From NCBI RefSeq assembly GCF_000585375.1, contig NZ_KK073874.1, positions 620,001 through 684,000 on the forward strand: a stretch of 64,000 nt of DNA. Direction: 5' to 3'. This document shows, piece after piece, positions 32,625-33,634 of this stretch (the first letter of the stretch is position 1; every line of letters starts with the position of its first letter). The notes beneath the pieces were generated by a model, which saw nothing but the letters and a program-made list of their open reading frames with translations, was not told the DNA's origin and searched no databases. This stretch comes from Cryptosporangium arvum DSM 44712 (GTDB lineage Bacteria > Actinomycetota > Actinomycetes > Mycobacteriales > Cryptosporangiaceae). Both the position numbers and the translations under genes were made by a program.

Positions 32625-32708
32625 CGTGCCCCGGACCGACGGTCGTTGGCTATGTCTACCAAGCCGATAGGAATTGTTTTCTCGACCAGCATCTGAAAGA
32701 CTGTGGTC

Positions 32709-32786
32709 ATGCGCGACGCCTGGAACCTCACCGGTCGTCTCTCCATCGACCTCGGTCGCGCGTCCAGCGCCTGGTGTCAGGCCTGA
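32709..32786 (+). CDS. Cys-type leader peptide upstream of a winged-helix regulator
   Basis: This 25-codon open frame (ATG 32709, TGA 32784) encodes MRDAWNLTGRLSIDLGRA, then SSAWCQA. It fits the actinobacterial leader-peptide pattern (L-x-x-RL-x-(I/V)DL-x-R-x-(A/S)SA-x-C), in which a Cys near the end is thought to sense cysteine supply by attenuation. It ends 88 bp before the winged-helix gene. Such peptides precede sulfur-assimilation genes; here the downstream gene is a regulator. An AT-rich stretch (TAGGAATTGTTTTC) lies about 35 bp upstream, a plausible promoter. Confidence 0.72.
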   Translation: MRDAWNLTGRLSIDLGRASSAWCQA

Positions 32787-32874
32787 CCCGCGCGGCCCCA
32801 GTCGGTCCTCGGCGTCGTCGACCGCTGCTCCCGCACCTCATCCCTGTGATCTTCGTGTCCTATTAGGAGCAGCC

Positions 32875-33579
32875 ATGACCGTTCAGCCCGTCGCCCGGCC
32901 CCGGATAGCCCCGCAACGAGCGCGCTCCCGCCCTCCCGCCTCGACCCCGGCCGCGTCGGGAGCGACGATCTCGGTCGAGGTGGCGGTGGCCGGGCCGGAA
33001 GCCCTCGAGACCGCGACGAAGCTCGCCGGCCAGATCCGCGATCTGGTCGACGCGGCGAACGCCGGCGCCGGCAGCGTCGCGATCTCCGCGTCCGTCGGGC
33101 TGGAGGTCGGCGCCGGTAACCGCGCGGGCCGCCCGGCGCTGACCCAGGTCGGTCGCACCGGATGGGCGCCGGCCGTGCCGCTGCCCGCGTTCGTCGCCCC
33201 GGCCCCGGTTCCGGTCGAGCCGGCCGTGAAGGTGGCGCCGGTCGTCGAGAAGTCCCCGGTCGTCGCGGCGGCGCCGCTGCAGATCTTCCCGGCGCGGCGA
33301 GTGGCGCTGCTCGACGGCGTCCAGCTCCAGCTCACCCGGCGCGAGTTCGATCTGCTGGTGTTCCTGAGCGAGCACGCCGGGCGGGTCTTCGACCGGCCCC
33401 AGTTGCTCCGGCTGGTCTGGGGCCACCAGGTGATCTGCGGCGAGCGCACGGTCGACGTCCACATCCGCCGCCTGCGCGCGAAGCTCGAGCGCACCGGCCC
33501 GGCCATCTCCACCGTGCGTGGCGTCGGCTACCGCCTGGACGCCGCGGAGCGCGTGGCCGTCGTCCACGAGCGGTCCTGA
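32875..33579 (+). CDS. Winged-helix (OmpR/PhoB-type) transcriptional regulator without receiver
   Basis: The 234-residue protein has an Ala/Val/Pro-rich N-terminal half (1-140) with no known domain. A full PhoB-type winged helix follows (about 142-226: LTRREFDLLVFLSEHAGRVF, LRLVWGHQ, RTVDVHIRRLRAKL, ISTVRGVGYRL). It has no receiver domain, so it is not a standard response regulator. AGGAG lies 7 bases before the ATG. The upstream Cys-type leader peptide suggests control by cysteine or sulfur status. A terminator follows at 33585. Confidence 0.87.
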   Translation: MTVQPVARPRIAPQRARSRPPASTPAASGATISVEVAVAGPEALETATKLAGQIRDLVDAANAGAGSVAISASVGLEVGAGNRAGRPALTQVGRTGWAPAVPLPAFVAPAPVPVEPAVKVAPVVEKSPVVAAAPLQIFPARRVALLDGVQLQLTRREFDLLVFLSEHAGRVFDRPQLLRLVWGHQVICGERTVDVHIRRLRAKLERTGPAISTVRGVGYRLDAAERVAVVHERS

Positions 33580-33584
33580 CGAAC

Positions 33585-33614
33585 GAAGGGCCCTGGCAAC
33601 GGCCAGGGCCCTTC
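33585..33614. terminator. Terminator after winged-helix regulator
   Basis: A perfect 13 bp stem (GAAGGGCCCTGGC and complement) with a 4-base loop AACG is followed by GGTTTC. It also faces the convergent membrane-protein gene, so it can serve both strands. Confidence 0.88.
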
Positions 33615-33634
33615 GGTTTCTCAGCGGTAGTGGT

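Follow-up and report, generated by a model that had tools for sequence, protein, structure and literature searches.

The window analysed here, i.e., the whole stretch of 64,000 nucleotides (positions 620001-684000 of a 9.2-Mb single-contig genome), carries a locus at which an orphan winged-helix transcription factor is rather likely to be expressed in response to cysteine, under control at two tiers. The leader, the box, the promoter geometry, their conservation, the absence of a receiver and a possible Shine-Dalgarno pairing are seen in the sequence. A real and conserved leader, which would respond to cysteine, probably controls the orphan regulator inside a sulfur regulon. The idea of a cysteine leader controlling the regulator, put forward in a preliminary description, was largely supported.

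From these features, we infer the translation of the leader, its response to cysteine, the direction and sign of control, the box-binding protein and the target genes. In the first tier, a DNA-binding protein that follows sulfur status would act on the palindrome that overlies the promoter, and transcription would rise in sulfur limitation. In the second tier, the transcript would begin at the leader ATG and the leader would be translated leaderless; when Cys-tRNA is short, the UGU codon would be decoded slowly, the downstream mRNA would refold, and the Shine-Dalgarno site of the regulator would be exposed. The receiver-less regulator would act via its abundance and adjust genes of sulfur or cysteine metabolism. 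The arrangement suggests that a shortage of cysteine switches on production of the regulator, which then takes part in running the sulfur response. The leader has one Cys codon only, which counts against the two-tier reading. The features of the locus are as follows.

32653-32675, no strand: putative sulfur-regulon box TGTCTACCAAGCCGATAGGAATT, a copy of the palindrome ATTCCTA-N9-TAGGAAT that overlaps the -35
32674-32702, plus strand: predicted promoter; -35 TTGTTT (32674-32679), 17-nt spacer, extended -10 TG-A-AAGACT (hexamer 32697-32702)
32709-32786, plus strand: leader peptide MRDAWNLTGRLSIDLGRASSAWCQA, 25 codons and stop, predicted to be leaderless
32775-32777, plus strand: single UGU cysteine codon, codon 23 of 25, invariant across the genus
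32824-32831, plus strand: candidate anti-Shine-Dalgarno GCTGCTCC, 8/8 complementary to 32866-32873
32866-32873, plus strand: Shine-Dalgarno region of the regulator gene GGAGCAGC
32875-33579, plus strand: receiver-less winged-helix regulator, 234 aa, with a beta-alpha-beta N-terminal region (residues 30-79), a low-complexity linker and a PhoB-type DNA-binding domain

Leader frame and its conservation

The preliminary description had placed a 25-codon frame 88 bp before a receiver-less PhoB-type gene, which proved correct to the base (32709-32786; ATG at 32875). We searched 200 order-level genomes with the leader as query and obtained matches of 100, 96, 80 and 75% in four same-genus genomes (E values of 2.3e-12, 4.9e-11, 2.7e-8 and 5.3e-7, respectively); outside the genus, nothing in these genomes fell below E 0.0018. 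The leader frame stood upstream of the orthologous winged-helix gene in all four genus genomes, 35-152 bp away, and the fear that it might be peculiar to one genome did not materialize. The peptides of the other three species are MSDAWNLTGRLHVDLGRASSARCRAY, MSDAWNLTGRLYVDLGRASSARCRRS and MSDAWYLTSRLHIDFGHASSAWCRRS. Substitutions at codon positions 1, 2 and 3 summed to 27, 6 and 33 over six pairwise comparisons, in which events are few and not independent. Read from the sequence, this avoidance of second codon positions is the pattern of a coding frame, and a peptide that recurs upstream of the regulator's ortholog in each of the four genomes is not a chance frame.

The regulator gene might instead start upstream at TTG 32674 in the same frame, making the leader frame an out-of-frame artefact. 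We regard this as extremely improbable: the window frame is indeed open to 32674 (301 aa), but the open frame of G002, 323 aa against 288 aa from the ATG, places a stop between leader and gene, and the ATG with its GGAG and the MTVQPV start is conserved in the four species.

Residues 7-23 of the leader aligned with positions 3-19 of the 19-position NCBIfam profile NF042934 (putative leader peptide). The score of 15.8 bits lies below the 27-bit cut-off, which leaves the leader outside the family; two of the orthologous genus leaders scored 25.0 and 21.7 bits, and none was reported for the third. The weaker order-level matches, whose downstream genes were named by reading sequences, were canonical sulfur leaders before ferredoxin sulfite reductase and cysC/cysD-type genes, and they place the window leader in the wider sulfur-leader class despite the NF042934 cut-off. 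Another group of weaker matches stood before a dicarboxylate/amino-acid symporter-like gene. The leaders of that group at L062, L066 and L067 read MTNVW(H/F)LTxRLYVDLR, and their W-x-LT-x-RL start is nearer to the window leader than canonical sulfur leaders are.

The homolog in the sister genus G004 (L017) has a perfect box and an unchanged -10 spacing; at the place of the leader stands a quite different sORF, MDSGFHPAWCLHRDLMRHCGSLCQPASRG, which contains three Cys. The leader could alternatively be a relic or a mere ribosome-loading device, with sulfur control only in the promoter box, as the single Cys codon and the many box genes without a leader would allow. We consider this improbable, since four species keep the peptide as far as its Cys codon, with constraint at second positions, and since the sister genus carries a different Cys-rich sORF at this place.

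Predicted promoter, putative sulfur-regulon box and candidate box reader

Six nucleotides separate the -10 hexamer from the leader ATG, and both the hexamer and its spacing are kept in four genus species. An xAnnnT element 6-7 nt before the start was found in 24 of about 32 related leaders, compared with 5.3% of ATG/GTG codons in the same loci. A strict sigma-70 consensus scan listed nothing at the leader promoter, and the promoter call is argued from conservation and spacing. Since the -10 ends so close to the ATG, the transcript should start at that codon and the leader should be translated leaderless. Published mycobacterial cysteine attenuators are leaderless (PMC4633059, PMC9031893).

GCCGATAGGAATTG is invariant upstream of the leader in the four genus species, and the 64-kb window holds no other close copy of the box. 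The window genome contains GATAGGAATTG three times, with the other two copies before LLM-type genes; Pfam assigned Bac_luciferase to one (L071) and gave no match for the short frame of the other (L070). Across five genomes, CTAN7GATAGGAAT with at most one mismatch gave 41 matches versus 3 for the reversed control. The shorter CCTAN9TAGGA was not enriched over its control; therefore, the claim for the box rests on the counts of the longer form and on gene contexts. In the genus, the box precedes genes for Bac_luciferase (LLM) monooxygenases, acireductone dioxygenase, TauE/SafE and an ABC permease; some of the CTAN7GATAGGAAT matches stand before unrelated genes, and many box-bearing genes have no leader. 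Perfect or near-perfect copies of ATTCCTA-N9-TAGGAAT in other genera precede genes for a sulfonate-type binding protein, TauE and an SsuD-like monooxygenase. In the window genome, the divergent sirA/cysC region carries CCTACTATTCCAGTAGG and two canonical leaders, of which the one at sirA likewise contains a single Cys. At other loci of the genus and order, the box precedes sulfite-reductase and cysteine-dioxygenase genes. From these contexts, the box is best read as a sulfur-regulon operator, and the window locus bears the ATTCCTA-N9-TAGGAAT-type box at its promoter that is taken to mark the sulfur regulon of the genus. The link of the leader to sulfur, claimed earlier from the peptide, was strengthened by this box over the promoter and by a cysteine-dioxygenase operon with a homologous regulator in another genus (see below).

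The best candidate for reading the box is a CymR-like Rrf2 protein encoded at 178708 of the same genome. Its matches among solved structures include CymR of S. aureus and B. subtilis, which rank right after one other Rrf2 entry; its gene stands behind ssuA- and ssuC-like genes, and the protein is 98% identical across the genus. In one study of Rhodococcus, no homolog of the classical sulfur regulators was found except a CymR-like protein, which was proposed as a global sulfur regulator (PMC8557817). A weak box-like CTACCGAGCAACTAGG lies near the likely ssuA start of the CymR-like locus (L131, G000:C1:172000-181500). We also considered the window regulator itself as the reader and rejected it, because the box is also present in genomes that yielded no close homolog of this regulator.

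Leader-gene interval and proposed mode of attenuation

The gap between leader and regulator gene ranges from 35 to 152 nt among the four genus species and is C-rich. This variable length indicates that the leader and promoter are kept rather than the whole intergenic stretch, and that no single RNA structure is conserved.

In the window genome (G000), the pairing of 32824-32831 with 32866-32873 was predicted with a probability close to 1. The Shine-Dalgarno of the regulator is complementary to upstream mRNA over 7-9 nt in all four genus species. Against shuffled sequences, this complementarity gave p 0.02 in the window genome and Fisher p 0.0024 over the four, with G002 alone not significant; no comparable pairing was found in G004. 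In G002 and G003, the pairing partner consists of the last codons of the leader and its stop (GCTCCTGA), such that it would lie under a ribosome pausing at the Cys codon. The anti-Shine-Dalgarno of G000 and G001 is located some 40 nt past the leader stop, out of the direct reach of a ribosome that pauses at UGU. When the leader strand of G000 was masked in silico to imitate a stalled ribosome, the Shine-Dalgarno stayed paired, so the classical masking model fits G002 and G003 better than the window species.

An intrinsic terminator is lacking between leader and regulator, which, together with the possible Shine-Dalgarno pairing, favours translational attenuation. This is our best guess from the sequence, and it is more tentative in its details for the window species. 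The leader might instead act through Rho-dependent or other transcription termination before the gene; Rho-dependent control has been suggested for mycobacterial cys leaders (PMC1262725), and a C-rich gap of variable length would suit it. We consider termination unlikely, given that the 35-nt gap of G003 leaves little room for a Rho site, that the Shine-Dalgarno complementarity exceeds chance over four species, and that an intrinsic terminator is absent.

The regulator stop is directly followed by a strong inverted repeat, GAAGGGCCCTGGC...GCCAGGGCCCTTC (33583-33622), which is likely a terminator between convergent genes. The Rfam search returned only a sub-threshold BjrC68 match over this downstream repeat, which may explain that match.

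Regulator family and comparison with known systems

The DNA-binding domain of the regulator spans residues 150-221 (33322-33537; Trans_reg_C, PF00486, 86.7 bits), and its genus orthologs have a like architecture. A single-sequence structure model reached a mean pLDDT of 47, with approximately 74 over the N-terminal element, and was too weak for a fold search. A related-locus search over GTDB genomes with the four orthologs as queries found no true relative.

In f15/g16, another genus, the box is followed by genes for cysteine dioxygenase (PF05995), rhodanese (PF00581) and, in third place, a receiver-less homolog. This order was found by sequence motifs in 28 of the 30 loci, with Pfam confirmation on one locus. 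The operon is conserved across f15/g16, and a second wHTH copy lies downstream (L169, L196-L225). In another family (L061), the dioxygenase-rhodanese pair follows the box and a canonical Cys leader. Judged by gene order, the f15/g16 operon links this family of regulators to cysteine metabolism, and does so without recourse to the window. The f15/g16 homolog is closer to the paralog in the window genome than to the window protein, and a tree of DNA-binding domains did not separate the deep branches; we therefore treat it as a homolog and not as a demonstrated ortholog.

A paralogous receiver-less regulator (L018, G000:C1:4880310-4883633; also L014, L015 and L016) has no Cys leader; a TTAGG-N4-CCTAA-like element, which resembles the inner part of the DtxR/IdeR iron box, lies 43-49 nt before its start. 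This element suggests that the receiver-less family is wired to several nutrients. The G002 copy of the paralog (L016) runs into a stop shortly behind the usual start (MTAQADQRAPLLPRVSPPGR, then stop) and would accordingly be broken, frameshifted or starting elsewhere.

As a tentative generalization, which we hold to be possible but on balance doubtful, receiver-less winged-helix proteins with a short N-terminal element may constitute a family of nutrient-status transcription factors in actinobacteria, controlled by supply and not by phosphorylation. The window member would be a dedicated cysteine-starvation regulator gated twice, by a CymR-like repressor box and a Cys-codon leader, and the paralog with the DtxR/IdeR-like box would follow iron.

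The master regulators of sulfur metabolism are not known in many actinobacteria. Here, a leader-gated regulator, a box, a proposed reader and box-bearing promoters are named, and these parts make the sulfur circuit directly testable. If the proposed circuit is true, cysteine attenuation would reach beyond enzymes and transporters and include a transcription factor.

Compared with OmpR/PhoB response regulators, the window regulator shares the Trans_reg_C domain; however, these proteins have a receiver, whereas the window regulator has a short beta-alpha-beta N-terminus with no receiver or receiver-like domain. Pfam gave no Response_reg match in it, so that of the two OmpR/PhoB response-regulator domains only the C-terminal one is present. 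Residues 127-221 are approximately 55% identical to a GlnR-like protein of the same genome, and the nearest solved chains are 8hig and 8hml, which we take to be GlnR. The f15/g16 operon shares with the window a receiver-less regulator of the same architecture and the same sulfur box but differs in that no leader was seen before the operon and the regulator is its third gene.

The nearest known systems to the leader are the mycobacterial sORF attenuators, leaderless and cysteine-responsive (Shell et al. 2015, PMC4633059; review PMC9031893; and Canestrari et al. 2020, as cited in later papers). Like these, the window leader is a short ORF, predicted to be leaderless, with a Cys codon near its 3' end (UGU, codon 23 of 25, invariant in four species) and before a sulfur-regulon gene, and translational attenuation has been proposed for them as for the window locus. 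It shares the RLxIDLxRxxSAxC core, nearly the whole profile, with the cis_reg_atten family NF042934 (also NF042933, Ms5788A, and NF042936, Ms4527A); that is, it would work like known attenuators and is formally no member (15.8 vs 27 bits). The mycobacterial attenuators have contiguous Cys codons, whereas the window leader has a single one, and they precede cysteine and sulfur genes, whereas the window leader precedes a transcription regulator. The new part is this controlled gene, a transcription regulator, together with the proposed two-tier arrangement.
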